Shown here one piece after another: positions 4,922 through 21,934 of a stretch of 64,000 nt of DNA. The stretch spans positions 3,596,001 to 3,660,000 of the forward strand of contig NZ_CP132932.1 of the NCBI RefSeq assembly GCF_040358985.1. Reading direction: 5' to 3'. The notes below the pieces were generated by a model. That model did no database searches. It was given only the letters and a program-made list of their open reading frames with translations, and was not told the origin of the DNA. Source of the DNA: Tunturibacter empetritectus (GTDB taxonomy: Bacteria > Acidobacteriota > Terriglobia > Terriglobales > Acidobacteriaceae). Both the position numbers and the translations under genes were made by a program. Every line of letters starts with the position of its first letter. Position 1 is the first letter of the stretch.

Positions 4922-5929
4922 TTGCCCGGCCGCCGCTCGCCGGATCTTGCATCGAACTCTCCTATGCCGTCAACTCTTCCCGACAAACCCGAAGCGCACA
5001 CGACCGCGAACACCAGCCACCCGGATCTGCCGCCGAAGCCGATCGAGGAGGTCACACCCGTAGTCTGCGACGACACCCTCTCAGGACAGATCGTCGCGTT
5101 AGCCCGCTACATGGGCCGCACCGAGGTCCATACCTACGCCTTCAGCGTCGCCGCCAACGTCATCCTCTCGCTCTTTCCGTTCATCGTGCTCCTGCTGACC
5201 CTCTGCCGCAGCGTCTTCCACTCGCGCTCGATGGAGGCCATCGTCGGCGACATGATGAAGAACCTCCTCCCTGTCGGCCAGGACTTCGTCATGCGCAACA
5301 TGCAGCTGCTGGCCCACCCCCACAAGGGGACCCAGCTCTTCTCGTTGGTCATGCTGCTGATCACCTCTACAGGTGTCTTTCTACCGCTCGAGGTTGCGTT
5401 GAACCGGGTTTGGGGAGTTCGCCAGAATCGAAGCTATCTTCACAACCAGGCCGTATCCCTCGGACTGGCCTTCGCGGTCGGCGTCCTGGCCATGGCCTCG
5501 GTAGCATCCACTGCCAGCCAGCAGACCATCCTCGCCTGGGTCTTCTTCGGCCACACCGAAAATGTCGTCTTCCACTTCATCTCCTTCGCCTTCCTCAAGC
5601 TCTGCGCCGGGCTTGCGAGCATCCTGATGTTCTTTCTAATCTATTGGGTGTTGCCCTACAGAAAGATTCCGGCGCGAGCAGTGGTGCCTACAGCCATCGT
5701 CGTCGGCCTGCTCTGGCAGTTGGCGAAGTACCTCTATATCAAGGCTCTTCCCTGGTTGGACTTTCAGTCCGTCTACGGACCGTTTTATATTTCGGTAGGG
5801 TTGATGATGTGGGCGTTTCTCTCCGGCCTGCTCTTGCTGGCAGGAGCCCATTTTTCCGCAACCCGTTATACCTTGAAGCTGGCACGGCAGGCGGACCTGG
5901 AGGCTGCGAACGATGCAAGACCCGAATAG
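4922..5929 (+). CDS. YihY/BrkB-family inner membrane protein
   Basis: About 335 residues with the multi-helix YihY/BrkB (formerly RNase BN-like) fold. Hydrophobic segments include FSVAANVILSLFPFIVLLLT, LFSLVMLLITSTGVFLPLEV and the C-terminal GLMMWAFLSGLLLLAGAHFS, and the family motif VWGVRQNRS is present. The molecular function of the family is not settled. The TTG at 4922 has GGGAG four bases upstream; the alternative ATG at 4964 gives a protein 14 residues shorter but has no clear ribosome binding site. Its last 17 bases overlap the start of the phosphatase gene, so the two are probably translated together. Confidence 0.82.
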   Translation: MPGRRSPDLASNSPMPSTLPDKPEAHTTANTSHPDLPPKPIEEVTPVVCDDTLSGQIVALARYMGRTEVHTYAFSVAANVILSLFPFIVLLLTLCRSVFHSRSMEAIVGDMMKNLLPVGQDFVMRNMQLLAHPHKGTQLFSLVMLLITSTGVFLPLEVALNRVWGVRQNRSYLHNQAVSLGLAFAVGVLAMASVASTASQQTILAWVFFGHTENVVFHFISFAFLKLCAGLASILMFFLIYWVLPYRKIPARAVVPTAIVVGLLWQLAKYLYIKALPWLDFQSVYGPFYISVGLMMWAFLSGLLLLAGAHFSATRYTLKLARQADLEAANDARPE

Positions 5930-8153
5930 CCCTACCCGGCCGCGCGTTCTCAGCCTGCTGAGAGAACGGCTGCCGACAGGACTTGCCGGCGCCGCAGCTT
6001 GGCTTGGACTGTGGTTCTGTGTGCTGTTCGTCCGCCGCTGGATTCCGGGCGGATTCGGAACCTTCCTTGGAGTGCTGCAGTTTTTTGTTGGAATTGCGCT
6101 GATCTCAGTCGCAATTCCCCTTGCCTGGCAGTTCGTGCGCCGGAATCTGCTGTGGAGCCTGCGCAACAAACTGGTGCTCACCTATCTGCTCATCGGTCTC
6201 GCCCCGGTGATCTTGTTCCTCACCCTCGTCGGAGTTCTGGCCTACGTCGCCGCGGGGCAGTTCGCCATCCACCTCACAGACTCGCGGCTGCAGGCTGAGC
6301 TGATCCAGATGAGAAACGAGAGCGGCCACCGCGCCGACCTCACCACTGCCCTCGTCGCCGAACGCCCCAAGGACTCAGCGCAGCAGATCGGCGGTGCAGT
6401 CCAGAACATCGAAAGCGCCGGAGAGGTAGCTCGTCTCGACATGCCTCGTATGAGGCTGCATCGCGAGACCCGTGTCTTCATGAATGGTGCTCCCATCGAC
6501 CTTGGCCCCAACTATCGCGGTAAAGCCCCGTTCGGCCTTCCTCCCTGGGCGACGGAACTGCCGGGTGGGGAGTTCTCCGGTCTGGTTCTCGATGGGCGCG
6601 ATCTCTACCTCGTCGCGCTTCACCAGAAAAAGTGGGACAGCGGACGCATCTTCACTCTGATGTCGAGCCTGCCGGTGGACAGCGCCTTTCTGAAGCTGGC
6701 CTCTGACGGCCTGGGACAAGCCAGCCTGCTGCCCCAGCGCGCAGGAAGAACCGCCAACGAGATCAGTCAGGAGAACAAAAACGGCGCGCCTGCTCCCGCG
6801 AAAAAATCGAGTCAAAAGGTCCGGTTCGCCGTAGGAGCCGACGGCATCAACAGCGGGTCCAGCTGGGTCGTCGGTGGCACCGAGCCGCCCGCCGTCAACC
6901 TCGCCGACGCCCGCGTCAGCTTCACCTCAACCGAGCCGATTGTCGACTGGGATACAGGAGAGCGGGACAACGTTCTCATCGCGGTTCAATCCCGGCCGTC
7001 TCTGCTCTATAACCAGCTCTTCGGCTCCTCGCTCGGCGGAATTGTAACCAGCGTTCTGCGTATTGCCATCATCCTGCTCTGCGTGCTCTTCGCGCTCATT
7101 GAGATGCTGGCCTTGTGGATGGCGATCGCTCTTAGCCGCACCATCACCTCGTCGGTGGCCGATCTCTACAGCGCAACGGAACACATCGAGGATGGTGATC
7201 TGGACTATCGCATCGGCGTCAAGAGCGACGACCAGCTCGCCGAGCTCAGCCGATCCTTCAACACCATGTCGGGATCGCTGAAGCGCCTGCTTGAAGAACA
7301 GAAGGAAAAAGAGCGCCTGCAGAACGAGATCTCCATCGCGCAGGAGGTGCAGGCCAACCTCTTTCCGCTTCACGCCCAGGGACTCGCGACGCTCGATCTG
7401 CACGGAGTCTGCCGGCCGGCACGCTCGGTCAGCGGCGACTACTACGACTTCCTCGTCTTCCACGAAGAAGCCCATGCAGGCATGATGAACCGCCGCGAGA
7501 CCGGTGTCGGAATCGCCATCGGCGACATCAGCGGAAAGGGAATCTCCGCGGCGCTGCTCATGGCAACCCTCCACTCCGCAGTGCGGGCCTACCGCTTCGC
7601 CAGCGAAGAGCTCGTCTACAGCGAATCCAGTGTGGCCGGGCTCATGGCCAGCAGGGAAGGCCGCGGCGGAGACTGCGACGAGCTGTTCCAATCGCCGGGA
7701 CGCATCCTCTCCCTGCTCAACCGGCACCTCTATCGCAGCACGCAGCCGGAGAAGTATGCCACCCTGTTTCTCGCGCACTACGACGTCGCCACGGCCATGA
7801 TGACCTACTCGAACGCCGGTCAGCTTCCGCCTCTGGTCCTCAGTCGCGACGGTCAGATCCGCCGGCTCGACAAGGGAGGCACCGTGGTGGGGCTCATGGA
7901 CGGCATGCAATACGAGGAAGACCGATTCCACATGCAGCCGGGAGACATCATGGTCGCCTACTCTGACGGCGTAACCGAGCCAGAGAACGACTTTGGCGAG
8001 TTTGGTGAGGAGCGCATGATGGAGGTCGTCGCGCGCTACCGCGATCAGCCCCTGCACATGATCTCCGGCCAGGTGATGCTGGCGCTCGACGCCTGGATCG
8101 GCGCCGAAGAGCAACCCGACGACATCACCCTCGTCCTGGCCCGCAAGACCTGA
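5913..8153 (+). CDS. Membrane PP2C-type serine phosphatase with HAMP domain (RsbU/SpoIIE-like)
   Basis: 746 residues. Three hydrophobic stretches (about 22-40, 48-72, 87-112) precede an extracytoplasmic region to about 370, a further helix (about 372-402), a HAMP linker (about 400-455) and a SpoIIE phosphatase domain (about 490-745). The phosphatase metal motifs are visible as SGDYYDF, GDISGKGISAALLMATLH (near 535) and AYSDGVTEPEN (near 682). Such enzymes usually dephosphorylate STAS anti-anti-sigma proteins in partner-switching stress circuits. A STAS protein is encoded at 47536-47889, but nothing in the sequence links the two. GGAGG lies inside the YihY gene nine bases before the ATG. Confidence 0.9.
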   Translation: MQDPNSPTRPRVLSLLRERLPTGLAGAAAWLGLWFCVLFVRRWIPGGFGTFLGVLQFFVGIALISVAIPLAWQFVRRNLLWSLRNKLVLTYLLIGLAPVILFLTLVGVLAYVAAGQFAIHLTDSRLQAELIQMRNESGHRADLTTALVAERPKDSAQQIGGAVQNIESAGEVARLDMPRMRLHRETRVFMNGAPIDLGPNYRGKAPFGLPPWATELPGGEFSGLVLDGRDLYLVALHQKKWDSGRIFTLMSSLPVDSAFLKLASDGLGQASLLPQRAGRTANEISQENKNGAPAPAKKSSQKVRFAVGADGINSGSSWVVGGTEPPAVNLADARVSFTSTEPIVDWDTGERDNVLIAVQSRPSLLYNQLFGSSLGGIVTSVLRIAIILLCVLFALIEMLALWMAIALSRTITSSVADLYSATEHIEDGDLDYRIGVKSDDQLAELSRSFNTMSGSLKRLLEEQKEKERLQNEISIAQEVQANLFPLHAQGLATLDLHGVCRPARSVSGDYYDFLVFHEEAHAGMMNRRETGVGIAIGDISGKGISAALLMATLHSAVRAYRFASEELVYSESSVAGLMASREGRGGDCDELFQSPGRILSLLNRHLYRSTQPEKYATLFLAHYDVATAMMTYSNAGQLPPLVLSRDGQIRRLDKGGTVVGLMDGMQYEEDRFHMQPGDIMVAYSDGVTEPENDFGEFGEERMMEVVARYRDQPLHMISGQVMLALDAWIGAEEQPDDITLVLARKT

Positions 8154-8164
8154 CAAAAGAAGCT

Positions 8165-8342
8165 GTCCTGCCGGACGGGCCTCCTGCGCGGAGGGCGGGC
8201 GTTCGCACGCCTTTTTAGAGCTTCGCCCGGTCCTCCCGTTGGTCGGCACGAGATCTACCCGCGACCAACGGGAACGCCAACCGAAGGGGTATACACGTCA
8301 CGAAGTGACCGCCGCCCGCGCAGGGCGCCCGTCCGGCAGGAC
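8165..8342. repeat. 178-bp giant inverted repeat (BIME-like element, copy 1)
   Basis: Perfect 16-base outer arms (8165-8180 and 8327-8342), imperfect middle arms (CCTGCGCGG against its complement) and perfect 11-base inner arms (8235-8245 and 8262-8272) mean the whole segment can fold as one long hairpin. The right half, read on the minus strand, matches a second single-arm copy at 19613-19696. It lies just after the phosphatase stop codon, between the convergent ends of this gene and the beta-propeller gene. A pair of inverted REP-like units is the simplest reading. Confidence 0.8.
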
Positions 8343-8554
8343 GCTGTCTCCTAAAAAATAGTTGAAAAACGTGGCGCATTTTTCACCGACGAAAAACACG
8401 TTGTCAGCACACCATCTCCACCACGCATTCCACCACGATCGCACCAGCAAAAAACCACGATCAAACACGCACTTTTTCCAAAACACCCTCAAAAAACCCA
8501 GCAACACAACAGAAATCCAGCCGCCCACCACGCCAAATTTTTTCTCGGAGATTT
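8343..8554. other. A/C-rich, G-poor intergenic tract
   Basis: No credible gene. From about 8391 to 8540 the plus strand is strikingly poor in G and rich in A and C, with runs of A and many CACC/CCAC words, unlike the GC-balanced coding DNA on each side. It is the 3' flank of both convergent neighbours. No terminator hairpin with a clear U-run was recognised. Confidence 0.5.
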
Positions 8555-9772
8555 CTATTTTTTATGGATCGCTTTAATCGCAATCGAGTTGGGGGAGATT
8601 CCAGCGGGAAGAATAGTAAACAGCGCCGGCCCCTGCTTTCCTGCCGTCCGAATCACCGCAACATCGCCCGAATGTGTATCTGCCGCCAGCAAAAGATGCT
8701 GATCCTCCGAAAACGCAAGCACACCCGGCCCAGAGCCCGTACGCACACTGCCCGCCAGCTTGCCATCGTCGATGCTGTAAAGCCCTATAGAGTCAGCACC
8801 TTGATTCGAGATCCAGAGCATGCTGTTATCGCCGCTCACAATCCCTTGAGCTGGCCTGTTGCCAATCGCATAAGTCCCCCCCACTTCGTTAGTCCACGTA
8901 GCAATCTCAGAGAAGCTGTCCGAATCAAAGTTCGAAACGAAGATCTCCCCACCATCCGGCTTCATCGCAAGATGAACCGGCGTCTTTCCAACATCAAGCA
9001 ACGCCAGCATATGGTCCGTGGTTAGTGACGAATTTTGTTTAGCCGCCCACGATCCAGGCGCTGCCGCAAGACCAACCGCCATCACCTGATGTCCCGCAGA
9101 GCAGGCCACAAAGGCCTTCGAAGAGTCAGGCAGAATGACGGTGTCCGAAGCTCCCTGACAACCGGAAGATGTCGAACGAAGATGCAGGGTGGCTCCAGAT
9201 GACGGCTTGGTGGAGTCGTAAGGAGTTACATCAAAGAGAGACACGCTGCCGCTGCCATGATTCGTCACAACAAGCGTGCGGCCATCCGGCGAGATGCGCG
9301 CCTGGACGGGTTGTTCGCCGGCGCCTGCCACAGAAACCTCGCGTCGGCGATCAAGATCAAGAACGCTTACGCTGTTGGAGCCGTAGTTGGCGACGTAGGC
9401 CCGGTGTCCAGTAGGGTCGACGGTAATAAAGGATGGCTGGCGGTGAACCAAAATCGTCGCGACGACACGGTTGACCTCAGCGTCGATTACCGAGATGGTG
9501 CCGGACTGAGCGTTGGCGACGTAGATCTCGTTTCGAGCCGGATTAACGGCCAGATTGGTTGGGTTCGCGCCCACCTGAAGCGTGCGATCCTGACGCAGGT
9601 AAACGAGATCGAGCACCGTGACTGTGTTCGATCCCCCGTTGCTGATGTAGGCATACTCTCGGTAGCCGACTGGAACGTCGGGGAAGCTGCTCCTTCGGCA
9701 ACCTGAGAGGCTAAGGAGCCCAAACGCTGCGAGCGTGACAAAACGAAAGGAATAAGGGTGGGGCGTGGGCAC
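8555..9772 (-). CDS. YVTN-type beta-propeller lipoprotein
   Basis: About 405 residues. The GTG at 9772 gives a lipoprotein signal: FVTLAAFGLLSLSGC with the lipobox cysteine at residue 25, so it is likely anchored to a membrane outside the cytoplasm. An upstream TTG at 9808 would lengthen the signal unusually. The mature part has repeated blades such as NTVTVLDL, GTISVIDAEVNRVVATI and NSVSVLDLDRRREVSV, each with the YVTN-family pattern, about seven in all. The family gives binding platforms or surface proteins; no catalytic motif is visible. It follows the ccm operon by about 200 bases on the same strand but is probably a separate unit. Confidence 0.85.
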   Translation of the reverse strand: MPTPHPYSFRFVTLAAFGLLSLSGCRRSSFPDVPVGYREYAYISNGGSNTVTVLDLVYLRQDRTLQVGANPTNLAVNPARNEIYVANAQSGTISVIDAEVNRVVATILVHRQPSFITVDPTGHRAYVANYGSNSVSVLDLDRRREVSVAGAGEQPVQARISPDGRTLVVTNHGSGSVSLFDVTPYDSTKPSSGATLHLRSTSSGCQGASDTVILPDSSKAFVACSAGHQVMAVGLAAAPGSWAAKQNSSLTTDHMLALLDVGKTPVHLAMKPDGGEIFVSNFDSDSFSEIATWTNEVGGTYAIGNRPAQGIVSGDNSMLWISNQGADSIGLYSIDDGKLAGSVRTGSGPGVLAFSEDQHLLLAADTHSGDVAVIRTAGKQGPALFTILPAGISPNSIAIKAIHKK

Positions 9773-9972: not shown

Positions 9973-10116
9973 TTAGCGGCGGCTATCCCGCACATGAACC
10001 CAGTTCCAGGCAGTCCATGCGAAGTACCCTCCCTGAATAACCCATACAGCCACATAGGCGAAGAGCAGGTGCCGGTGAGGCATGGTGCTCAGATCGAAGA
10101 AAGAACGCCAGGTCAT
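9973..10116 (-). CDS. ccmD: CcmD-like small membrane protein of heme export
   Basis: 47 residues: one membrane helix (about 18-36) followed by a short basic cytoplasmic tail ending HVRDSRR, the normal CcmD build. In other bacteria CcmD sits with CcmA, CcmB and CcmC and helps release heme-loaded CcmE. The ATG at 10114-10116 overlaps the ccmC stop in an ATGA arrangement, so translation is coupled. A longer frame to 10248 exists but runs inside ccmC and is not credible. The assignment rests on size, topology and position because CcmD sequences are poorly conserved. Confidence 0.72.
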   Translation of the reverse strand: MTWRSFFDLSTMPHRHLLFAYVAVWVIQGGYFAWTAWNWVHVRDSRR

Positions 10117-10850
10117 TGCGGGATCTCCAAAGAAGCTTCGATGGCCTGCAGGGCGGCCTCCTGCTCGGCTAGTTGGCGACGACGCTCGAGGGCGAAACGG
10201 AAGAGAACGATGCAGATACCCCACACGGTCCAGCCGGCGAGATTCCAATAGAAGGCGGGGAGCATGGAGGGGTCAATCCCTGAGTCGGGGCCACCCCCGA
10301 AGACCGGCGCAGGGTGCTGGGTGCGCCACCAGCGAATGGACATGTAGACGATGGGAACGTCCACCGCGGCAAACACTGAGAGAACTGCGGCGAGAGTGTG
10401 GGTCTGCCCAGTAGACGAGAAGCGGCGCAGCATCAGATAGCTGACATAGAGCAGCCACAGGAGGAGCATGCTGGTAAGGCGGGGGTCCCAGGTCCACCAG
10501 ATGCCCCAGGTGGCGCGGCCCCAGAGCATGCCAGTAAGCAGACAGATGCTGGAGTAGACAACTGTCACTTCGGCAGTGCTAAGCGCCAAGGCATCTGCGG
10601 CAAGGGCCTTGAGCGGTTCGCGATGTCGCCAGTAGAGATAGAAGAGCGAGGCTACGAAGTTGATGTAGGGGAAGATCAGACTCAACATCGCGATGGGGAC
10701 GTGGTAGTAGAAGATGCGCCCGACGTTGCCCTGCGCTGCGTCCGTGGGGACGAGGAAGATGGCTTGGCGGAAGCCGACGGCGAGCACAGCGATGCTGATG
10801 CCAAACCAGAGCCAAGCGACGCTGCGGAGAGTGGGGGTGCGCTGCTCCAT
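10113..10850 (-). CDS. ccmC: Heme exporter permease CcmC
   Basis: 245 residues with six hydrophobic helices. The tryptophan-rich heme-handling signature WGIWWTWDPRLTSMLLLWLL is present, preceded by the conserved histidine in FYYHVPIAMLS. It presents heme to the apo-chaperone CcmE on the periplasmic side. A second histidine (RTQHP) lies in the last periplasmic loop, as expected for axial heme ligation. The gene is the fifth of the ccm operon, 24 bases after ccmB, and overlaps ccmD by four bases. Confidence 0.93.
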   Translation of the reverse strand: MEQRTPTLRSVAWLWFGISIAVLAVGFRQAIFLVPTDAAQGNVGRIFYYHVPIAMLSLIFPYINFVASLFYLYWRHREPLKALAADALALSTAEVTVVYSSICLLTGMLWGRATWGIWWTWDPRLTSMLLLWLLYVSYLMLRRFSSTGQTHTLAAVLSVFAAVDVPIVYMSIRWWRTQHPAPVFGGGPDSGIDPSMLPAFYWNLAGWTVWGICIVLFRFALERRRQLAEQEAALQAIEASLEIPQ

Positions 10851-10874
10851 GGATCTAGTTTATCCCGAATGCCG

Positions 10875-11564
10875 TCATTCGGCGTTGAGGACAGTCTCGA
10901 AGAGCAGAATGCAGACCGTGGTGAAGATGATGTCGTAGCCGAGGAGCTGCTTGATCCAGGTGTTGATCTGGATGGGGTCGAGGTCAGCGGTGAGTACGCC
11001 AGTGGTGGCCTGCACCATGGCCAGGAGGGCGGGGAGGGAGATGGGGAGGAGAAGCAGTGGGAGAAGCAGTTCGCGGTTGCGGGCGCGCAGGCCCAAGGCG
11101 GCGAAGAAGGTGCCGTTGACAACCAGCGCCCAAGTTCCAAGCGGCAGGATGACAGCGAGAAGCCAGACGTTGCCGAGCGCGTGGAGGTTGAAAAATACGA
11201 TGAAGATAGGAGCCAAGACCGCCTCGACGGCCAAGACAAACAACATGTTAGCGAGGGCTTTGCCGAGGAAGAGGGCGGAGGCGGGGGAGGGGGCCATGCG
11301 CTGGGCTTCAAGGACGTTGTTACGCTGCTCCCGAGTCCAGGACTGGTTGAGGGCTGTGATGGAGGCGAAGAGCAGGGCCACCCAGAGGATTCCACCGGAG
11401 ATCTGGCGGGCCATGGTGGGGTAGCTGGTGGGGTCGAAGGCCAGGCCGAAGACTACGACGACCAGGAGGGAGAAGAAGAGCATCCCGTTGATGGAGTCGC
11501 GGGAGCGCCACTCGAGGCGGAGGTCTTTGCGGAGGTGGTCCCAGACGTGATGGAGATACTTCAT
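10875..11564 (-). CDS. ccmB: Heme exporter permease CcmB
   Basis: 229 residues, the normal length. It is the membrane partner of the ATPase CcmA, which drives release of holo-CcmE. The N-terminus has the family block [22 protein letters not shown], then six hydrophobic segments, with [17 protein letters not shown] in the conserved central loop. The ATG (11562-11564) overlaps the ybaK stop by four bases. The same frame stays open far upstream, but that part runs antisense-style inside ybaK and is not part of the protein. Confidence 0.92.
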
Positions 11565-12082
11565 GCCTTGGGTTGATCCTTGGTGAGATCGGCCAGGGTT
11601 GCGTTGGCGGCGCGGAGATAGTCTGAGGGAGCGAGGAGGAGCTGGAGGCCTCGCTGGCCGGCGGAGACGGAGATCTGGTCGAAGAGTTCGATGGTCTCGT
11701 CGGCGAAGGCTGGGAAGGGCTTTTTGGCTCCCATGACGGTGACTCCGCCACGGATGTAGCCGGTGAGCGGCTCTACTTCTTTGAGGGAGGCTAGGTCGGC
11801 TTTTTTTGCTCCGGCGGCGTGGGCCAGTTTTTTGAGGTCGAGTTCGGCGTCGCCGGGGATGACCGCGAAGACGTGGTCCATCCCTGCTGGGCCGCCGGCG
11901 ATAGTGTTGGTGTGGGCGAGGAGGGTTTTGAAGACCTGCTCGGGGGGGAGGCCTATCTTGCGGGCGACGGAGATGGCGGTCAGGTCGTCGGGGTCGACCT
12001 CGTAGGGGCGGAGTTCGTAGGGGATGCCCAGGGTGTCGAGGAGGCGGGCGGCGTTGGTCTTGGCTGGGGCGGGCGTCTTCAC
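11561..12082 (-). CDS. ybaK: Cys-tRNA(Pro)/Cys-tRNA(Cys) deacylase, YbaK/EbsC family
   Basis: 173 residues. It hydrolyses cysteine mis-attached to tRNA-Pro. Visible family features are the N-terminal [20 protein letters not shown], the conserved lysine in QVFKTLLAH, and the [17 protein letters not shown] stretch that lines the active site. The unusual point is its place: four-base overlaps with ccmA upstream and ccmB downstream put it inside the heme-export operon between the ATPase and its permease. A role in cytochrome maturation is not implied by the family; co-regulation is certain only at the transcript level. Confidence 0.92.
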
Positions 12083-12846
12083 CCAGCGGCCTCGGCTGGG
12101 GAGTCCGTGGTCCGGGGAGTCTGCCAGTGAGTGTCCAGAATCTGGCCGTTGCGCATGGTGAGGGTGCGGTCGGCGATGGGTTCGGCGAGGGTGGACTGGT
12201 GGGTGGTGAGGAGGATGGTGCGGGCACCGGATACTCCGTTGACCGGAGCTACAGGCCAGGTGCGGAAGTCGGCGAGGAGCTCGACCATGTGGCGGGCGGA
12301 GGCGGCGTCGAGGTTGGAGAAGGGCTCGTCGAGCAGGAGTATCTCCGGGTCGGTCTGGAGGACGCGGGCGAGGGAGGTGCGCTGGCGCATGCCCTGGGAG
12401 TACTGGCCGACTGGGCGGTTAAGCTTGGGGTCGAGGCCTACGGCGCGGAGAGCCATCTCGGGGTTGCCTACGCAGGCGCAGCCTCCTTCGCGATGGAGCG
12501 AGGAGAAGTAGTTCAGGTTCTCGATGGCGGTGAGCTCGTCGTAGAGCATGGGCGAGTGGCTCATGTAGGCGATGCGGCGGCGCTGCTGGTGAGGGGAGCC
12601 GGAGAAGACTGTAACGCGGCCGCGGGTGGGCGTGATGAGGCCGGCGATGATGCGGAGGAGGGTGGATTTTCCGGCTCCGTTTTCGCCGAGGATGACGGTC
12701 GAGGAGCCGGTGCAGAAGCTGGTGGTTACGTTGCGGAGGGCGGCGAAGGTGCCGTAGATCTTGGAGACGGAGTCGAGCGCGATGCAGTCCCTGCCGGCAG
12801 CGGATGGAGTCGGAGTGCTGCGAGTTGTCTCTGCCGTCTGCGTCAT
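12079..12846 (-). CDS. ccmA: Heme exporter ATPase CcmA
   Basis: 255 residues from the ATG at 12844-12846. Walker A is GENGAGKST (near 57), the ABC signature is YSQGMRQR, and Walker B is [12 protein letters not shown], with the switch histidine in LLTTHQS. It powers the CcmB complex during delivery of heme to CcmE. The helical domain carries a CxC pair (GGCACVG) not usual in the family. The frame is open further upstream, but an alanine/proline-rich extension there overlaps ccmE and is not credible. It lies 19 bases after ccmE. Confidence 0.92.
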
Positions 12847-12865
12847 ATTTTTTCGTGCGCGGCGG

Positions 12866-13321
12866 TTAGCGGGTTGCGGGAAGGGTTGCGGCAGCTGTGG
12901 TGGCCGGGGTTGCAGAGGCGGGGGCCGGGGCGTACTTGGAGGCGCATTTGGCCTGGAGCTGGGTGGCGTGGAAGACGCCGTCGTGGCCGTAGGTGCCGAC
13001 GGCGAGCGCCTGGGCGTCGTCCTTGAAGGTGTCGGGGGGTGGCTCGGAGCCCTGGTAGACCACGGAGAGTTTACGGCCTTGTTCGAGGAGGTCAAAGGTG
13101 GCGCTGGTGCCTGCGCGATGGATGCTTCCGGGGGCGACGTTGCCGGCTACGCGGAGGTGGCGGACGTAGGCTTTGTTCCCCATACCCTGAAGCTCGCCGA
13201 TAGTGACGTAGTAGCTCTTGTTGTCGCGGCCGCCCGTGAAGGAGAGATAGGCGATGGTGGCCACAATGATGAGAGTGGCGACGATGAATTTGACCGGGCT
13301 CTTCTGGGGTGCGTTTGCCAT
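12866..13321 (-). CDS. ccmE: Heme chaperone CcmE, CxxxY variant
   Basis: 151 residues. An N-terminal anchor (about 12-28) is followed by the OB-fold heme-carrier domain (about 38-125). In the classical protein a histidine in HxxxY binds heme covalently. Here the motif reads KCASKYAP, with Cys126 and Tyr130, so it is the cysteine variant known from some archaea and sulfate reducers. The last 20 residues are a flexible Ala/Pro/Thr tail. It is first in the operon ccmE-ccmA-ybaK-ccmB-ccmC-ccmD. ccmF, ccmG and ccmH are not in this window. Confidence 0.9.
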   Translation of the reverse strand: MANAPQKSPVKFIVATLIIVATIAYLSFTGGRDNKSYYVTIGELQGMGNKAYVRHLRVAGNVAPGSIHRAGTSATFDLLEQGRKLSVVYQGSEPPPDTFKDDAQALAVGTYGHDGVFHATQLQAKCASKYAPAPASATPATTAAATLPATR

Positions 13322-13977
13322 GTTGTTCGTCTTTCAGTCTACGTTCGCGGGTTCGATTTGGATAGTCAACGAGTTGGGGTATACCCCCCCTCCCCCCTTG
13401 GGTATCTTGGGCGTAAGCCTATTTAATGAGTGGTTTACAGAGGGGGTGTGTCTGTAAAATATTGCATTCAAAGGGCTTACGTGCAAAATATTTGATTTGT
13501 TGCAGTTACACTCCTTGTCGTGTGAATGGTGTGTGTCTGTTCGATTTCTGTTCGTTACTTCTATTTTAGACGATTGGCGGGGGGTAATACGCCACGACAA
13601 AAGCCGCTCTGGGCGTGGGTTTTAGCCACTTTGGGGCTTGACAAGATTTAACGGCAGAGAATTTGGGTAGCTCAATAATTGAGACAAGCAGGTTTCGTTC
13701 AAGGCAGCACGGCTGAACTATCGTTCGGTTAGGTTTTTGGCCGACTTCGGGCATTTGAGATTTTTGATATCGATTCAACACCCGAATGTGAGGATTCAGG
13801 ATAGGTGGAAAAGGAGGACGATGGAGGTTCTGGGAGATTCGAGGCTGTTACGAAACCGGGTTTGATCAGCGTCTCTGAAGACAAGCGATATTTGAGAGAT
13901 TTCAATACGACGGAACAAGTCCTCCGAGTTGGACGTAAAGCAACGCAAGCAGCTAAATGCAGGAAGTGAGGTCTAGC
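13322..13977. other. 656-bp divergent intergenic region between ccmE and a secreted hydrolase
   Basis: No credible gene on either strand; the middle (about 13430-13560) is noticeably more AT-rich than its flanks. It must hold the ccm promoter (minus) and the hydrolase promoter (plus). Near the ccm end are a perfect 12-base palindrome (GGGGTATACCCC, 13376-13387) and an inverted pair ATACCC/GGGTAT (13381-13386, 13400-13405) around a C-run. Confidence 0.5.
13376..13405. promoter_or_regulatory. Palindromic C/G-tract site upstream of ccmE
   Basis: GGGGTATACCCC is immediately followed by a C-run that ends in GGGTAT, so ATACCC and GGGTAT face each other across 13 bases. It lies 55-84 bases upstream of the ccmE start. 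G/C tracts bounded by such words are typical of CsoR/RcnR-type metal repressor operators, but no such repressor gene is in the window, so the assignment is only a suggestion. Confidence 0.3.
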
Positions 13978-15210
13978 GTGCCTTTGCGTCAACTAGCATT
14001 ACTTTGTTACGTGATCCTCGGAGCGCTCAACTTCGCTTTGGCTGAAGACTATGCCGCGGTGAATTTCCTCGAAAAACCGGGACCGCACGCAGTCGGGATC
14101 AGAGTCGTCGAGCACTATGACAGTGCGCGCGACTTTGGATCGGCAGTTGATCAAAAAACTGTCCCAGCGACCCAAACTGAACGTGGCCGGCCGTTGCAGA
14201 CGCTCGTCTGGTACCCCGCGCAGAGGACTGGTCGGAAGACCATGACCATGGGGGATTACGTCGCGTTGATGGACACAGAGGTGAGCTTCGGTAAACCCCA
14301 GAGAACGCGAGATGGCGATGTACTAAAGGCGTGGTTACAAGCATCCCTTGGACAATCGATGTCAGCTGTACGGGATGCGGGCCTTGAGACGGGCCGGTTT
14401 CCGGTGGTGATCTACGCTCCAAGCTTCACTTCCTGGTCTTGGGAGAATGTTGATCTGTGTGAATATCTCGCGAGCAACGGCTATGTCGTGGTTGCAAGTC
14501 CAGGCATGGGAGAGAAGTCTCGTGAATCTACTCATGATCTGTCGGGAGTCAACGCTCAGGCCAGTGACGTATCGTTTCTGATCGAGTATGCGGCCTCACT
14601 TCCAGACACCGACATGACGGGGGTAGCTGCCATTGGCTTTAGCTGGGGAGGACTGGCCGACTTGTTCGCAGCTTCGAGAGACAATCGAATCAAGGCGTTG
14701 GTCTCTCTTGATGGTAGCGAGCGCTACTTTCCGGGCTTGGTTGAAGCGTCCAAGACTGTTCACCCCGACCAAATGACCATTCCGCTAATCTACTTCGAAG
14801 AGGGCGACCAATCGCTGGAAGATCAGGATCTACTTAATCGTCGCTTTCACGCGGATGGACCGAGTGTACTCAATCAGTGGGTACATGGGGATCTGATCAC
14901 CATTCGGATGTTGGGACTCTTTCATCCTGAGTTCTGCTCAATTGCATATCGAAATGAAGAGCTATGGGAAAAGGAGCTTCCGAATCTACAAGTGGCAGAT
15001 TACAACCGTGCAGACGGTTTAGTCGGATATTCCTGGGTGATGCGCTACACGAGAGCGTTCCTAGGCTTTTATCTAAAACACGATGTTCAGGCTGGAGCCT
15101 TCCTGAAGGCTCCTTCAAGTGCGAACGGCGTTCCAAACCACACGATGTCGGTGAAATTGCGGCCGAGTATTCGCGTCGCGAATAAAACGGTTGGAGACCC
15201 AGCCAACTAA
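13978..15210 (+). CDS. Secreted alpha/beta hydrolase (dienelactone-hydrolase-like)
   Basis: About 410 residues. The GTG at 13978 follows AGGAAGTGAGG by six to seven bases, whereas the in-frame ATG at 13957 has its ribosome site downstream; the GTG also gives a clean signal peptide (LALLCYVILGALNFALA, cut before EDYA). The nucleophile elbow GFSWGG places the catalytic serine near residue 222, with VVIYAPSFTSWSWENVD forming the oxyanion region. Related acidobacterial proteins are annotated as dienelactone hydrolase or acetylhydrolase family; the substrate is unknown. The gene stands alone between two long intergenic stretches. Confidence 0.78.
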   Translation: MPLRQLALLCYVILGALNFALAEDYAAVNFLEKPGPHAVGIRVVEHYDSARDFGSAVDQKTVPATQTERGRPLQTLVWYPAQRTGRKTMTMGDYVALMDTEVSFGKPQRTRDGDVLKAWLQASLGQSMSAVRDAGLETGRFPVVIYAPSFTSWSWENVDLCEYLASNGYVVVASPGMGEKSRESTHDLSGVNAQASDVSFLIEYAASLPDTDMTGVAAIGFSWGGLADLFAASRDNRIKALVSLDGSERYFPGLVEASKTVHPDQMTIPLIYFEEGDQSLEDQDLLNRRFHADGPSVLNQWVHGDLITIRMLGLFHPEFCSIAYRNEELWEKELPNLQVADYNRADGLVGYSWVMRYTRAFLGFYLKHDVQAGAFLKAPSSANGVPNHTMSVKLRPSIRVANKTVGDPAN

Positions 15211-15358
15211 GGTCAAATGGTGCGATTGGACAAAGACTGTTCTCGGTGTACGAAGTTTATTTGAGGCGCAACGGAAGGCGGCATATTTGAATGTCTCCGC
15301 CCTTCGTGGAACTAATCTCTGCTTCGTGGATTAAAATTTTGCTACATGAGGCTGGCTT

Positions 15359-16120
15359 ATGTTTATAGCGCGGAGGTTGATAGGTGTTGGTCTGGTGGTG
15401 GCCGTGGCTGCGCCTCTGTGGGGGCAGGATGCGAATGGGCAGGACAAGACTCTGGTGCAGGAAGACAGCCGTTTGAACAGTGTGTATCAACAGAGAGTGG
15501 CGCAGCTGCGGGCCGATCCGAAGGGGTTGACGGCGCTGCGGAAGCAGGAGCGCGACTGGATTATGCAGCGGGATCAGCAGTGCGGGAAGGACGCTGGGTG
15601 TTTGACGCAGGCGACGAAGGCGCACGCCGACTACTTTGAGACGCAGGTGAAGCAGAACGATCCCGCGGCCAAGGCGGGCAGTCCGATTCCTGAGATGATT
15701 AGGGGACAATGGATGGTGAAGAAGGTGCTTCCTACGAAGACGATCGCGTGCTGGGACCAGAAGCAGGCCGATGCAATGATAGGCACTGAGCTGGAGTACA
15801 AGGCGGATAGCCTGCGATGGAAGACGACGACGGTGCGGAACCTTGGCAGTACGGCGGCAACGGTCGAAGCGAAGCAATTTGCTGAAGACAACTCGGGTAG
15901 GGGCAGCCAGAGTTCTCAGGTGGATTTTAGTCAGTTGGGCATCGCGACGCCAACTGTACAGCAGATCACGATCGAGCATCCAGACGTCACAATCCAGGAC
16001 GGGTCGGCTGGCGGCAGTATGGAGATGCCGGGTGATGTGGTGATGATGAAGGATAGCGACCGGCTGGTGTTTTCGGTTTGCAATGTTTATTTTGAGGCGG
16101 ATCGGGCTGGGAAACCGTAA
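15359..16120 (+). CDS. Secreted protein with LprI-like (DUF1311) domain
   Basis: 253 residues. A signal peptide (LIGVGLVVAVAAPLWG, cut before QDANG) is followed by an LprI/DUF1311-type domain: LNSVYQQRVAQL, then RKQERDWIMQRDQQCG with the two cysteines of CGKDAGC. Members of this family inhibit lysozyme in some pathogens, but most are uncharacterised. The C-terminal half (about 110-253) has no motif I recognise. GAGG precedes the ATG by about seven bases. The stop is followed at once by the composite repeat at 16166. Confidence 0.75.
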   Translation: MFIARRLIGVGLVVAVAAPLWGQDANGQDKTLVQEDSRLNSVYQQRVAQLRADPKGLTALRKQERDWIMQRDQQCGKDAGCLTQATKAHADYFETQVKQNDPAAKAGSPIPEMIRGQWMVKKVLPTKTIACWDQKQADAMIGTELEYKADSLRWKTTTVRNLGSTAATVEAKQFAEDNSGRGSQSSQVDFSQLGIATPTVQQITIEHPDVTIQDGSAGGSMEMPGDVVMMKDSDRLVFSVCNVYFEADRAGKP

Positions 16121-16165
16121 GGGTTATCTTCGCGGTGGATGGATGATGACTGGCAGACGCAAGGG

Positions 16166-16375
16166 CAAAATGCGGAGATTCTTCGCTGCGCTCAGAATGA
16201 CAGGCTAGAGGAAGTAGAGCAAAAATAAATGCAACGGCAGAAGCAACAGCAGATCCCTGCGGAATGACAAGCAAAGGAACAGGCAACGGCTACAGAAGCA
16301 GCAACCGCGACAGAAGCAGCAACAGCAGCAGCTACAAAAGCGACCGTGGTCCTCGTTGCGCTCAGAATGGCAGTG
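16166..16375. repeat. Composite interspersed repeat, locus 1
   Basis: Two blocks of the type CTTCGCTGCGCTCAGAATGA flank an AGCAACGGCAGAAG-like stuttering stretch and a hairpin-like GCAGATCCCTGCGGAATGAC block. The same building blocks recur at 19016, 25013, 43312, 49086 and 50680. It occupies the gap between the convergent ends of the LprI-like and YciE-like genes. Confidence 0.8.
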
Positions 16376-16403
16376 ATTCTGATGCACCTTTGAACAGTAA
16401 AAA

Positions 16404-16427
16404 GCGGAGACACTGTGAAGTCTCCGC
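16404..16427 (-). terminator. Rho-independent terminator of the YciE-like gene
   Basis: Perfect eight-base stem (GCGGAGAC/GTCTCCGC) with an eight-base loop, 36 bases past the stop of the minus-strand gene. On the minus strand TTTTTACTG follows directly. CTCTTT on the plus side may let it act weakly in both directions. Confidence 0.8.
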
Positions 16428-16462
16428 CTCTTTAGTTGAGCGCCGGTTGCTATGTAGCAGAA

Positions 16463-16996
16463 CTAGACGCTGGTGGCGGTTACGGTTTTGGGTTCGGCTG
16501 CGGTGGTGTTGACGGTGTCGGAGATGGTGGAGAGGAGTTCGTCGGCGTTCTTCTCTTCGTCGAGGATGCTGTCGAGGAGATCGGCTGCGTCGTCGTCGCC
16601 GAGGAGTTCGGCCCAGGTGCGGAGGGTGCCGTAGACGGCGATCTCATGATGCTCGACCTGCTGCGCGGAGGCGATGAGGGTGATGTCGCGGATGCTGGTG
16701 TCTGCTGCGTCCTTGATGTTGTCCTCGGCTTCGGTGACGAGGGCGGAGATGGCTTTGCAGGTGGAGGTGTCGGCGTTGCCGTTGGTGGCGTCGCGGAGGA
16801 TGCTTTCAACTTTGGCGACGTGGGTTTGAGTTTCGGTGAGGTGGTTGCGGAAGGCGGAGGCGAGCTGGGGGTCGGTGGACTTCTCGATCATGGTGGGGAG
16901 GGCTTTGGTGATCTTCTGCTCCATGTCGAGGGCCTTTTTGAGGTTGGCGATATAGAGGGTGCGGAGGTCTTCGATGTTTTCGGAGAATAGCTTCAT
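16463..16996 (-). CDS. YciE/YciF-type ferritin-like protein (DUF892)
   Basis: 177 residues, a predicted four-helix bundle. Glutamates and histidines occur where a ferritin-like di-iron site would be: ALDMEQKI, HLTETQTHVAKVE, QVEHHEIAVYGTLR and LDEEKNADE. The family is often induced by stress; iron binding has been shown for relatives, but the reaction is unclear. The C-terminal 15 residues are a Thr/Ala-rich tail. AAAGGAG precedes the ATG by eight bases and a strong terminator follows at 16404, so this is a single-gene unit. Confidence 0.88.
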   Translation of the reverse strand: MKLFSENIEDLRTLYIANLKKALDMEQKITKALPTMIEKSTDPQLASAFRNHLTETQTHVAKVESILRDATNGNADTSTCKAISALVTEAEDNIKDAADTSIRDITLIASAQQVEHHEIAVYGTLRTWAELLGDDDAADLLDSILDEEKNADELLSTISDTVNTTAAEPKTVTATSV

Positions 16997-18987
<1,991 letters not shown>

Positions 18988-19015
18988 CGGTTGCCGGAAG
19001 TGCGGTTGTACGGTG

Positions 19016-19088
19016 AAGGCAACAGCAACGGCAAAGACAAGAGCAAATGCGAAATACGGGGATTCTTCGCGTTGCTCAGAATGACAAG
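19016..19088. repeat. Composite interspersed repeat, locus 2
   Basis: GGCAACAGCAACGGCAAAG stuttering followed by ATACGGGGATTCTTCGCGTT and GCTCAGAATGAC, 28 bases after the thiC stop. It has the same architecture as loci 1 and 3-6. Confidence 0.78.
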
Positions 19089-19111
19089 GGGTATTGGTGG
19101 TTTATAGAAAA

Positions 19112-19141
19112 AGGCCGTGTCCCTGGTTTGGGAGGCGGCCT
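19112..19141 (-). terminator. Hairpin terminator, minus strand
   Basis: Two-part stem AGGCCG/CGGCCT and TCCC/GGGA. On the minus strand it runs straight into TTTTTCTATAAA, a good U-tract. It is 240 bases downstream of the small membrane-protein gene at 19381-19482 and could end that transcript. On the plus strand, after thiC, the following ATCTCTTT is weaker. Confidence 0.6.
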
Positions 19142-19380
19142 ATCTCTTTGGGGAGGAAACTGGTTTCGGTTGGCTCGGAGCGTTAGCTGGGAGTCTGTTG
19201 CGTTGGGGGCGAATGGTACTGCGCTGCGGGGCGGCAAGGGGTAGCTCAGAGCTGGAGTCGAAGGACGGCTCGAATTGGTCAGCGCTGAAGTTGAAGGCCA
19301 TGCCCGCGATGCGGTGGAGGATGCGGGTTGGTGTGGGCTGGCAACAACTTACTCCGTGGGGCGGCAGCACAGCGGTGAGT

Positions 19381-19482
19381 CTAGAGAATATCTTTCTCCT
19401 GTTTGTCAGATCGCATGGCAAGAAGTGCAGGAGCAATAATCATTGCGAGAAAAACCAAAGCTAGAACGAGATCGTGGACCAT
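19381..19482 (-). CDS. 33-residue single-helix membrane miniprotein
   Basis: Short open frame from ATG (19480-19482) to TAG (19381-19383). The product starts MVHDLVLALVFLAMIIAPAL and ends with a charged tail RSDKQEKDIL: one hydrophobic helix of about 18-20 residues and a hydrophilic C-terminus. The start has an excellent ribosome site, AAAGGAG seven bases upstream, and a terminator candidate lies at 19112. It has no recognised family. The combination of strong ribosome site, clean helix and charged tail supports a real gene; function cannot be inferred. A longer frame on the same strand (19140-19436) lacks these features. Confidence 0.62.
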   Translation of the reverse strand: MVHDLVLALVFLAMIIAPALLAMRSDKQEKDIL

Positions 19483-19612
19483 TGGGGAGTCTCCTTTGGG
19501 CGGCTTTGACCGTCTTGAGAGTAATCATGCGGCAGGTGACTAAATGGGGACATCCCACTTCGGGAAGCAAAGATGCGTCTTTTGGGGGATGGTTTTTCTT
19601 TTTAATGCTCAG

Positions 19613-19696
19613 GTCCTGCCGGACGGGCCCACTACGCGTGGGGCGGTCACTTCGTGACTTGTATACCCCCTTCGGGTGGTCCTCCCGTTGGTCGGA
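19613..19696 (+). repeat. Half-unit of the BIME-like repeat (copy 2)
   Basis: About 84 bases matching the right half of the 8165-8342 element read on the opposite strand: the GTCCTGCCGGACGGGC arm, then GCGGTCACTTCGTGAC, TATACCCC-TTCGG and CCCGTTGGTCG in the same order. It stops where the hairpin apex lies in copy 1, so only one arm is present. It sits in the 262-bp gap before the M28 peptidase stop, where nothing else is visible. Confidence 0.75.
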
Positions 19697-19744: not shown

Positions 19745-21934
19745 TTATTTGGTGGCTTGTTTGTTTGCGTTTTCGAGGATGGCGGCGGAGTGGTTGAGGG
19801 CGGCGGCCAAGGCGGCTAGCTGCGATTGGGCTCTCGGGGCGTCGGGGGCGTCGATGCCTTCGTTCACGCCGGGGATGACGACGGCGGCGTAGCCGGTGAA
19901 CTCGCCTGGAGCGTAGATGGTGTGTTTGTACCAGGAGCGCTTGGGGAGACCTTCGGGGTTTAGAAGAGCGCCCTCGGCTTCGCGCAGGGATTTGTTGAGT
20001 GCGACGGGGTTTGATGACGGCGCGGCCTGGGTGGCTCGGATGGCGGTGCCGGCGGCGGCGAAGCGGTTGGCGGCGGCCTGGGCAGCGGTGAAGTCGAGGG
20101 TGAGGTTCTTGGCGGTGGCTTGTTTCTGCGCGGCCTCGAGGTAGCCTACGATCTCTTTGCCGTAGAGCTGGTAGTCGTAGGGAAGGACGTCGGCGTCGGC
20201 CATGTGGAGGATCTCGAGGCCGAAGACGCGAGCTTGTTGCTGCTCGTAGACGAAGGTGGGGTCGGCGAATTTGGTGAACCAGTTGTAGTTGTCGAAGACG
20301 GAGTGGTAGACGCCGTAGGGGCCTTCGGAGCCGATGTCGGTGGAGGGGACGCCGAGGTGCTGGATGAAGGGGGTGTAGTCGGAGCCGGAGCCGAGGGTGC
20401 CGATGTGGACGTCGGAGTCAGTGGATTCGGTTGGCTTGTGTGTGCGCCGCGTGGGGGCGGTTGCCTGGTCGGCCTTCCACTGTTCGTAGACGGTTCCGCC
20501 TTTGGGGCTGGCGACTTCTTTGGTGACTTCGCGGACGAACTGTTTGAGCGAGGGTACGGCGGCGGCGTCGAAGTTGGGGCCGGCTACGCCTACGTCGGTG
20601 TTGAAGTAGGCTACGGCGTGGGCGAGGTGGGTTTCGTGCTGCTCGGCCCACTCGGTGGAGCCGATGAGACCTTCTTCTTCTGCGTCCCAACTGCAGAGGA
20701 CGATGCGGCGTTGTGGCTTCCAGCCTTGCTTGAGGAGTTCGCCCAGGCCGTGAACGGTTTCGAGCATGGCGGCAGTGCCGGAGTTGGGATCGACGGCGCC
20801 GTAGACCCAGGCGTCGCGGTGGTTTCCGGCTACGACCCAGTCTTCTTTCTGGGTGGAGTCGGTTCCGTCGATGGTGCCGGTGACGTCCCAGATGGTACGG
20901 AGGGCGATGTCCTGATCGAGGTGCATGTGGACAGTGATTTTAGGAGGCGTACCGTGAGTGCCGCCTGCTCCGAGATTGCTGGAGGCTCCTAGGTGGTAAG
21001 TGAAGGGGAGTGCGCCCTGCCAGTCGCGGGGGGATTCGGCTCCGCCGAGGGCTTTGAGGATGGGGGCGGCGTCGTGGTAGGAGAGGGGGTTAGTGGGGAT
21101 GGTGGGCTGATTGTTCTGAAGCTTGTCGACGGGGATGCGTTTGGAGTCGGGGAGGTCGGGTGTGGAGGCTATGCCGGGAGTGGTGGGGTCGCCGGGGTAG
21201 ATGGGAAGGAACTGGATGGAGCCGCGCTGGACGGCGGTCTCGGGGCGGTATGGGCCGCGGGGGTAGATGTCGCCGCGGAAGTAGCCGTCGTCGGCGGGGT
21301 CGGAGTAGATGAGGACGCCGACGGCTCCGTACTGCTGGGCAATGTAGGTCTTGATGCCGCGGAAGTTTTCGCCGTAGCGGACGAGGACGATCTTGCCTTT
21401 GACGCTGATGCCTAGTTTGGTGAGCTGCTGGAAGTCGGCGAGGGTGCCGTAGTTGGCGTAGACGACCTCGGCGGTGACGTCGCCCGAGGGGGAGGAGCCG
21501 TTGAAGGCGGGCAGGATGCGGGGATCGTCCTGGAAGGGGTCGCCGCCGAATTTGCTGGGGTCGACGTGCTCTGGGGTGGGACCGGACATGAGTTTTTTGC
21601 CGTCGGCATCGAAGGCTTCGATGAGGATCTTGACGGGTTTGGTGAGGAGGACTTTGTAGGGGACGATCTGGGTTTCGAGGCCGGCGGCTTTGAACTTGTC
21701 GGCGACGTAGACGGCGGTGGCGTAGTCCTCGGGTGAACTGGCCCAGTGGGGGGCGGCGGTGAGGGTCTTGAGGTGCTGGCCTGCGAGTGCGGCGTCGGGG
21801 ACAGCCATGAAGATTTTGTCCCACTTTGACTGCTGGGCGAAGTCGCGATATCCGAAGACCTGGGGGGTGGGAGACTGGGCCAGTGTGAGGGCGGCGAGGG
21901 GGAGCAGGCAGGCTACGGTGCGGAGACGAGTCAA
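19745..21934 (-). CDS. Secreted M28B metallopeptidase, glutamate carboxypeptidase II-like
   Basis: 729 residues with a signal peptide (TVACLLPLAALTLA). Order of domains: peptidase part 1, a PA insert (about 160-270, GKIVLVRYGENFRGIKTYIA), the catalytic dizinc domain (about 340-580) and a transferrin-receptor-like dimerisation domain (about 610-729). Zinc and catalytic residues are visible as AGNHRDAWVYGAVDPNSG, SWDAEEEGLIGSTEWAEQ and GSGSDYTPFIQHLGVPS. The family removes C-terminal glutamate or acts as an aminopeptidase; this one probably works in the periplasm on scavenged peptides. The start is TTG with CGAGG eight bases upstream. It is a monocistronic gene. Confidence 0.9.
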   Translation of the reverse strand: MTRLRTVACLLPLAALTLAQSPTPQVFGYRDFAQQSKWDKIFMAVPDAALAGQHLKTLTAAPHWASSPEDYATAVYVADKFKAAGLETQIVPYKVLLTKPVKILIEAFDADGKKLMSGPTPEHVDPSKFGGDPFQDDPRILPAFNGSSPSGDVTAEVVYANYGTLADFQQLTKLGISVKGKIVLVRYGENFRGIKTYIAQQYGAVGVLIYSDPADDGYFRGDIYPRGPYRPETAVQRGSIQFLPIYPGDPTTPGIASTPDLPDSKRIPVDKLQNNQPTIPTNPLSYHDAAPILKALGGAESPRDWQGALPFTYHLGASSNLGAGGTHGTPPKITVHMHLDQDIALRTIWDVTGTIDGTDSTQKEDWVVAGNHRDAWVYGAVDPNSGTAAMLETVHGLGELLKQGWKPQRRIVLCSWDAEEEGLIGSTEWAEQHETHLAHAVAYFNTDVGVAGPNFDAAAVPSLKQFVREVTKEVASPKGGTVYEQWKADQATAPTRRTHKPTESTDSDVHIGTLGSGSDYTPFIQHLGVPSTDIGSEGPYGVYHSVFDNYNWFTKFADPTFVYEQQQARVFGLEILHMADADVLPYDYQLYGKEIVGYLEAAQKQATAKNLTLDFTAAQAAANRFAAAGTAIRATQAAPSSNPVALNKSLREAEGALLNPEGLPKRSWYKHTIYAPGEFTGYAAVVIPGVNEGIDAPDAPRAQSQLAALAAALNHSAAILENANKQATK

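Follow-up and report, generated by a model that had tools for sequence, protein, structure and literature searches.

A REPIN-like repeat family with a distinct fold and strand-oriented single units in Edaphobacter genomes

Introduction

The 178-base hairpin found at positions 8165-8342 of the window (the whole stretch of 64,000 nucleotides from Tunturibacter empetritectus analyzed here) belongs to a high-copy family of extragenic repeats, which is REPIN-like in its working, but has a distinct fold and strand behavior, and for which no transposase was found. The reading that we favor, and to which we give a probability of roughly one half, is that of a genus-restricted, non-autonomous and REPIN-like mobile family, with a replication-coupled and probably single-stranded spread, mediated by an enzyme that our searches did not find.

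REPINs are defined as hairpin-forming doublets of REP sequences, the singlets being regarded as remnants (PMC3116915, excerpt). How REP-like doublets multiply, and whether the singles are remnants or a separate form, are questions touched by the family described here, a large one whose host genomes include several with no Y1 transposase detected. The singles are near-absolute in their strand polarity and the dimers have none, and the fold can be read by covariation. Given this polarity, the genomes with no Y1 detected and the readable fold, the mechanism becomes testable with a single-strand substrate. Additionally, the singles offer a strand marker in genomes with a very strong GC skew. Our search of titles and abstract openings (with subscription papers largely outside its reach) returned no published description of the element.

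Results

The two window elements

A preliminary description of this DNA, made from the letters alone, had proposed a 178-base hairpin built from two inverted units, together with a half-element 11 kb away that matches one arm and stops at the apex. Both proposals held: at window 8165-8342, two halves that are related without being alike (hereafter A and B) form an inverted dimer, and 19613-19696 is a real copy of its right arm (8260-8342, minus strand), ending near the apex. This single is a B half, because it scores 76.0 bits against the profile of the B arms and 37.5 bits against that of the A arms. Read from the outside, half A consists of hairpin 1, hairpin 2, a GCGG linker, hairpin 3 with its TTTTT tail and the apical strand; half B has hairpins 1 and 2 in common with A and differs in hairpin 3. 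Both the dimer and the single lie between convergent genes. The features of the window are as follows.

5913..8153, plus strand: gene with HAMP and SpoIIE domains, upstream of the dimer; the end of the stop codon and the start of the dimer are 11 nt apart
8165..8342: the inverted dimer as a whole, with half A on the plus and half B on the minus strand
8165..8248, plus strand: half-unit A (hairpin 3 followed by TTTTT), 82.4 bits with the A profile
8165..8176, plus strand: hairpin 1 of A, GTCC-TGCC-GGAC; the stem covaries to GGCC/GGCC and GCGC/GCGC (genome G040)
8180..8194, plus strand: hairpin 2 of A; strong stem covariation, with the outermost pair formed in only 199 of 310 units
8187..8197, plus strand: pseudoknot of A, loop CGC (8187-8189) with GCG (8195-8197)
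8198..8216, plus strand: hairpin 3 of A (8198-8211) and five T, terminator-like by eye
8234..8245, plus strand: left strand of the apical stem, pairing with 8262-8273
8260..8342, minus strand: half-unit B, 78.6 bits with the B profile
8297..8309, minus strand: hairpin 3 of B, reading GTCAC-TTC-GTGAC in the direction of this strand
8313..8327, minus strand: hairpin 2 of B
8331..8342, minus strand: hairpin 1 of B
8555..9616, minus strand: convergent gene past the dimer (beta-propeller, Lactonase family), 212 nt from it
17491..18987, plus strand: ThiC-family gene, 625 nt to the left of the single
19613..19696, plus strand: single half-unit of B type, on the G-rich strand
19745..21934, minus strand: convergent gene right of the single (peptidase M28 family), with its 3' end 48 nt away

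Fold and covariation

The nested arms that had been described as spanning the whole element were recovered as an outer pair of 34 nt (8165-8198/8309-8342, 88% complementary) and an inner pair of 25 nt (8221-8245/8262-8286, 76% complementary), of which the lower arm has no covariation support. The RNA fold of 8150-8360 reaches -119.4 kcal/mol (z -7.27, with none of 200 shuffles as stable) and the same region folded as DNA has a z of -6.85; the single half by itself has no exceptional stability (z -0.81). The structures supported by covariation are, in each half, three local hairpins and a pseudoknot, and not the lower arm of the giant hairpin. Among 20 A/B dimers, picked among the best BLAST matches in this genome, the local hairpins are paired in 96.6% of the cells; two-sided covariation is seen in 40 cells (11.0 in shuffles), and the covariation score is 0.223 against 0.080 (0/500 shuffles in both cases); further pair types in these hairpins are not above the shuffles (15 against 14.2; 210/500). 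For the lower arm, the giant hairpin was rejected as a selected structure, with 8 two-sided changes against 8.4 and a score of 0.050 against 0.058. The apical stem is paired in 97% of the cells and never changes on both sides, so covariation neither supports nor refutes it.

A broader set of 310 distinct half-units (selected by the TGCC loop, the hairpin-2 loop frame and the hairpin-3 motif, and not all independent) gives 98.0% pairing for hairpin 1 (94.2 shuffled), 91.2% for hairpin 2 (68.9% shuffled) and 99.5% for the pseudoknot between the CNC of loop 2 and the GNG of the linker (97.4 shuffled). The middle pair of this pseudoknot is G-C, T-A or A-T across copies (293, 8 and 4 half-units, respectively, with 5 unpaired), which amounts to few independent changes, since the paired variants come from genome G065 and Granulicella sp. 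L60 only. The G040 copies have an unchanged TGCC loop in the outer hairpin, with a stem of either GGCC/GGCC or GCGC/GCGC, which may differ between the arms of a dimer. An extra hairpin of the CCCCACAAACGAAGACCTGTTTGTGGGG type lies within hairpin 2 in six sampled copies (L301, L304, L307, L346, L277:11570 and L281:94); a seventh match to this motif, in L333, is unrelated.

Copy number and distribution

The genome-wide search suggested in the preliminary description revealed a high-copy family, excluding the outcome in which the two window copies would be the only ones. The 16-mer of the outer end, GTCCTGCCGGACGGGC, has 117+132 matches with at most one mismatch (249 in 5.03 Mb), against 2+0 for its reversed control. 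Profile searches of a 1.264-Mb genome sample (an even set of 60 stretches plus the window, with a 4-kb copy-free part counted twice) found 91 half-units, about 82-97 nt long and forming 61 elements. The count of paired and single copies, also suggested at the outset, came to 30 dimers (16 B/B, 8 B/A and 6 A/B; the arms of a dimer are often of different types) and 31 singles (18 B+, 13 B- and no A single). Extrapolation suggests some 360 half-units in the whole genome.

Within the genus (62 genomes), 14 genomes have at least 40 matches to the 16-mer, 6 have 5-39, 20 have 1-4 and 22 have none. In a survey of 150 genomes of the family (4 of them from this genus), the 146 others have 0-4 matches each, about the control level. 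Among the genomes surveyed, high copy number was observed in this genus (Edaphobacter) alone; the named loci among the matches listed are Edaphobacter, Granulicella, Terriglobus and Acidobacteria records. The 16-mer count misses variants: G040, with only 2+2 matches, is rich in a variant element, with at least 76 match rows in a comparison using the whole element (40 of 376 candidates being scored). A blastn search of plasmids and phages gave no match to the element, nor did viral contigs match an exact pattern. No Rfam family reaches its gathering score in the window and, at E values up to 1 over four loci, the only hit is MIR918, whose 36.4 bits (E 0.002) compare with a gathering score of 268.

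In the distant genome G071, most matches (L390, L394, L414 and others) are of the A half only, with about 89-95% identity over 82 nt, and, despite these well-matched A halves, identity is only 67% for the gene next to the window locus. Such a similarity would reflect either horizontal spread or strong constraint.

Strand polarity of the singles

The G-rich strand is normally the leading strand, which has the same sequence as the lagging-strand template. Taking as strict singles those with no weak mate within 420 nt and not at the end of a stretch, 27 of 28 in this genome (G000) are on the G-rich strand, as are 11 of 11 in G054 (same species) and 58 of 67 in named-genome loci, the last set overlapping with G054, G014 and G037, so that not all are independent. 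When copies with identical first 100 nt are removed and G054 and G072 omitted, singles with the apex motif are on this strand in 72 of 79 cases, and dimer arms have no bias (24/55, 21/50 and 34/65). Gene strand was considered as the cause of single orientation and rejected, as it accounts for 15/29 (net) or 18/29 (nearest gene), against 28/29 for the skew.

This genome has a very strong local skew, averaging 0.18 in absolute value over 2-kb steps. The skew is independent of gene strand (the correlation between neighboring genes on opposite strands is 0.84) and seldom changes sign, with 2 strong flips among 571 steps. Around the window single it is +0.256 (10001-20000) and +0.332 (20001-30000). 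Beyond its first 10 kb (10001-64000), the window is mostly at +0.2 to +0.4 in 1-kb steps, and long blocks of opposite sign occur elsewhere in the genome sample; a typical skew is roughly 2.5% according to the SkewDB abstract, and the window is far above it. The elements are not switch points of the skew, whose sign differs at 3/25 dimers and 0/17 singles, with a background of 11% of 515 gaps.

That singles follow the strand of the GC skew is the outcome expected for a replication-coupled, single-strand (HUH-like) mobility. With GC skew as a proxy, the singles (27/28) have the orientation of IS200/IS605-like elements, among which IS608 and ISDra2 act on the lagging-strand template (PMC6006769, excerpt). 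We infer that the polarity of the singles reflects replication, GC skew standing in for fork direction; the bias could instead arise after insertion.

Gene context

Based on gene calls from our own codon-usage script, the elements are close to neighboring gene 3' ends (median 12 nt, 47/75 within 15 nt) and farther from 5' ends (median 72 nt, 2/41 within 15 nt). The 61 elements fall in 29 tandem, 23 convergent and 6 divergent gaps, 2 being at the edge of a stretch and 1 overlapping a weak gene call; the background is of 514 tandem, 140 convergent and 146 divergent gaps, and the convergent ones are enriched (23/58 elements against 140/800 gaps, p 7e-5). No gene-facing preference of the arms was seen. 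A terminator model with the A arm first was rejected, given that the A/B dimers in tandem gaps have A first in 4 cases and B first in 4; the singles in such gaps are sense in 9 cases and antisense in 5.

Search for a moving enzyme

The preliminary description had assigned the element to the architecture of REP/BIME sequences mobilized by RAYT-type transposases. The part that stands is the inverted dimers and singles in extragenic positions; no linkage to a RAYT was found. Two Y1_Tnp genes do exist in this genome (L061 and L062), and neither has a half-unit within about 1.5 kb. The gene at L062 (G000:C1:617956) is flanked on both sides, by eye, by a different repeat containing GGTGCCCCATCCTTTCGCAGTCTCATCGCGATAGGGTGGGG. 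Y1_Tnp is present in 49 of 60 genus genomes (129 matches); none of the 32 loci examined (L061, L062 and 30 more from among the 129 matches, with flanks of about 1.5 kb) has a half-unit, and the number of Y1 genes has no relation to copy number (Spearman -0.07, p 0.60, n=60). Among the genomes with at least 40 matches to the 16-mer, 3 of 13 are without Y1, and the element-rich G014, G002, G041 and G040 give no Y1_Tnp match (their assemblies being in contigs, with completeness of 99-100%). RAYT genes have been described as always flanked by two inverted REPs (PMC2817692, excerpt).

The GTAG tag is in neither the A nor the B consensus. On the unit strand it occurs in 7/88 outer 15-nt segments, 3/88 bodies and 1/88 inner 15-nt segments, and its complement CTAC occurs in 19/88 bodies, in a variant of the hairpin-2 loop. 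The tag is crucial for the TnpA_REP enzyme of E. coli, and changes in it are largely tolerated by others (PMC8266576, excerpt).

An autonomous element framed by plus and minus units was also sought and rejected, with no DDE or HUH transposase among the 30 distinct longest ORFs of 35 framed intervals (0.5-3.5 kb, from the loci sampled, one duplicated protein and four orthologues being left out). These ORFs are mostly housekeeping genes, and 4 have no Pfam match. A 151-aa ORF between units at L197:6565-7017 (E. lichenicola M8US30) has a weak serine-recombinase match (PF07508, E 2.3e-4).

Same-site comparison and turnover

Empty sites in relatives, which the preliminary description had proposed to look for, do exist: G041, G067 and G066 have the region of the window dimer without the element. 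Among the 30 loci compared, the element is present in G000, G054, G044, G037, G072 and G014, and 19 are too different in their neighborhood for comparison. In G060 and G002 (L245 and L246), a different, CGTC-like repeat occupies the site orthologous to window 8165, which suggests an insertion hotspot. Over nine sites, the element is shared at 7 with G044 and with G037, at 6 with G014 and at 7 of the 8 mappable ones with G054.

Arm types change at a fixed site. The copy at 19613 is a single in all four comparable genomes, of B type in G000, G037 and G014 and of A type in G044; as such A/B swaps are not point mutations, we read them as gene conversion or replacement. Between species, orthologous elements have mean identities of 0.73-0.83 (2-6 pairs per species pair), close to the 0.73 of random paralogues, and their flanks have 0.88-0.93, a contrast that is partly expected because the flanks include coding sequence, conserved anyway. 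Orthologous elements are 0.97 identical within a species and 0.99 in the near pair G014/G072. No clear new insertion separates G000 from G054 (same species): 13 of 15 compared sites are equal and 2 differ in content, and one further site is occupied in G000 and has a remnant in G054. Remnants or truncated arms are found in G014 at the L338 site, in G054 at the L277:11532 site and as a 55-nt unit in G041 and G060. At L357:7725-7788 (G014), a remnant with its interior deleted has the two ends left as a small palindrome.

Flanking direct repeats

When the 32 nt next to each end were compared, 36 of 117 dimers had a direct repeat of 6 bp or longer, against 17.9 in 100 shuffles (sd 4.1, maximum 28), and 14 had one of 7 bp or longer (4.7 in shuffles, maximum 11). 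A limit of 20 nt leaves a weak excess, with 14 dimers against 6.8-6.9 for 6 bp or longer (maximum 16 in 100 shuffles; 5/200) and 4 against 1.6 for 7 bp or longer (maximum 5). Among the 42 dimers of G000, the 32-nt limit gives 12 with repeats of 6 bp or longer (6.8 in shuffles; 4/200) and 7 with 7 bp or longer (1.9; 0/200), and the 20-nt limit gives 5 with 6 bp or longer (2.7; 24/200). The element ends are constant, and the flanking repeats (6-10 bp) vary in length and offset, the strongest cell being at 8-15 nt on both sides (7 against 1.8); some of these pairs are orthologues (L379/L381) or T runs (L015). At three sites with an empty allele we saw, by eye, about one copy of TCTCAG, GAAGATT or CCTGAA in the empty allele and two around the element. 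The window dimer has no intact flanking pair.

According to an excerpt of PMC2817692, IS200/IS605 transposition makes no larger target duplication. The flanking repeats are suggestive of a target duplication and constitute the main evidence against a pure HUH mechanism, as they fit better a transposase that makes such duplications than an HUH enzyme.

Discussion

Alternative explanations

These repeats make it necessary to consider a MITE, in which the dimer would be moved by a DDE-type transposase making 6-10 bp target duplications, the terminal inverted repeats would be a weakly conserved AGARACT followed by GTCCTGCCGGAC, and the singles would be truncated remnants. The excess of direct repeats within 32 nt (in both the 117-dimer and the G000 sets) and the three empty-allele sites speak for it; nevertheless, the excess is weak within 20 nt, the repeats have no constant length or offset and include orthologous pairs and T runs, the window dimer has no intact repeat, and the framed intervals yielded one weak serine-recombinase match and no DDE or HUH transposase in 30 ORFs. 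Moreover, a MITE does not predict oriented singles, and these do not sample the dimer arms at random (type A in 0/31 singles against 14/60 arms, p 0.002), so that we regard this explanation as unlikely. The classical REPIN/RAYT system, in which a Y1 transposase moved the units and may act from a distance or have since been lost in some genomes, appears less probable still. It would account for the inverted doublets and singles in extragenic positions, for a strand bias like that of lagging-strand-template transposition (PMC6006769, excerpt) and for the Y1_Tnp genes in 49/60 genus genomes, yet none of the 32 Y1 loci has a nearby half-unit, the numbers of Y1 genes and of copies are uncorrelated, 3/13 genomes with at least 40 matches and the element-rich G040 have no Y1, and the consensus has no GTAG tag.

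The orientation of the singles might also be acquired after insertion, by fork-dependent replication slippage removing one arm of a dimer or by selection for one direction. Truncated arms and remnants, such as those in G014 and G054 and the 55-nt unit of G041 and G060, agree with this possibility; however, the similarity among singles stops within about 11 nt of the apex, they are not a random sample of arms, and window 19613 is a single wherever it can be compared (four genomes), which makes the idea improbable to about the same degree as a MITE. We find it hard to believe, with the same reserve as for the REPIN/RAYT system, that the family is mainly a 3'-end RNA element (terminator or mRNA stabilizer) kept by selection and only incidentally mobile. 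The median distance of 12 nt from gene 3' ends and the T run after hairpin 3 of A (kept in Terriglobus MAG copies with GGCGT/ACGCC and GGTGC/GCACC stems) are in its favor, but there is no orientation towards the gene (an even split of 4 to 4 between A-first and B-first dimers, and 9 sense to 5 antisense singles), the B arms have no T run, hairpin 3 of A is absent from the listing of a consensus terminator scan, and presence differs between species.

Proposed mechanism

In the reading that we favor, a replication-coupled REPIN-like family, the folded half-unit would be recognized as single-stranded DNA on the lagging-strand template, and singles would therefore enter in one orientation; dimers are palindromic and would be without orientation. 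After insertion, the copies would be homogenized by gene conversion among hundreds of copies. The moving enzyme may be other than a Y1/RAYT from the genome that holds the copies, and placement after stop codons may be tolerated, or be useful as a 3'-end RNA hairpin. A bolder version, doubtful although somewhat less so than a MITE, would make the family a RAYT-independent class of repeats, in which the pseudoknotted, multi-hairpin half-unit is copied as single-stranded DNA at the fork by a host enzyme or one acting in trans, and dimers form by fork-linked joining or template switching, followed by genome-wide homogenization. If this were true, singles would always be one-way and dimers would be two different half-units joined.

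Comparison with known systems

The family resembles REPINs and BIMEs in its inverted doublets and singles, its hundreds of copies, its extragenic location in convergent and tandem gaps and the complementary changes in its stems. It differs in its half-units, which span 82-97 nt and contain a pseudoknot besides their three hairpins (a REP being one palindrome of 20-60 nt), in having no consensus GTAG and no linked Y1 gene seen, in its strand-oriented singles and in its excess of flanking direct repeats. MITEs of the ERIC, RUP and Correia type are extragenic imperfect palindromes of 100-200 bp, and IS630-type MITEs duplicate TA; the element is likewise an extragenic imperfect palindrome, and is distinguished by its modular arms, its singles and their strand orientation.

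Acidobacteria carry TIRYT genes (PMC3733652, excerpt), RAYT-like genes flanked by non-GTAG repeats; the phylum is the same and the L062 gene has similar surroundings, but the repeat that flanks it is not this element. The CGTC-tagged REPs form dimers and have no transposase associated with them (Di Nocera et al. 2013, PMC3733652, excerpt), as seen for this element, and their gene context is of the same kind. As described in that excerpt, a CGTC REP is a single stem of 8-9 bp with a loop of 4-5 nt and CGTC at one end, whereas the element has three stems of 4-5 bp and its CGTC is internal, between hairpins 1 and 2. This CGTC is on the opposite strand (as GACG) in 69/88 units and is absent from the G040 copies. 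Separate CGTC-like repeats are also present alongside the family and, in a Terriglobus MAG (L134, L147 and L169), the apex of the element has a CGTC-type repeat (GTCATCCTGAGCGAAGC...) nested within it.
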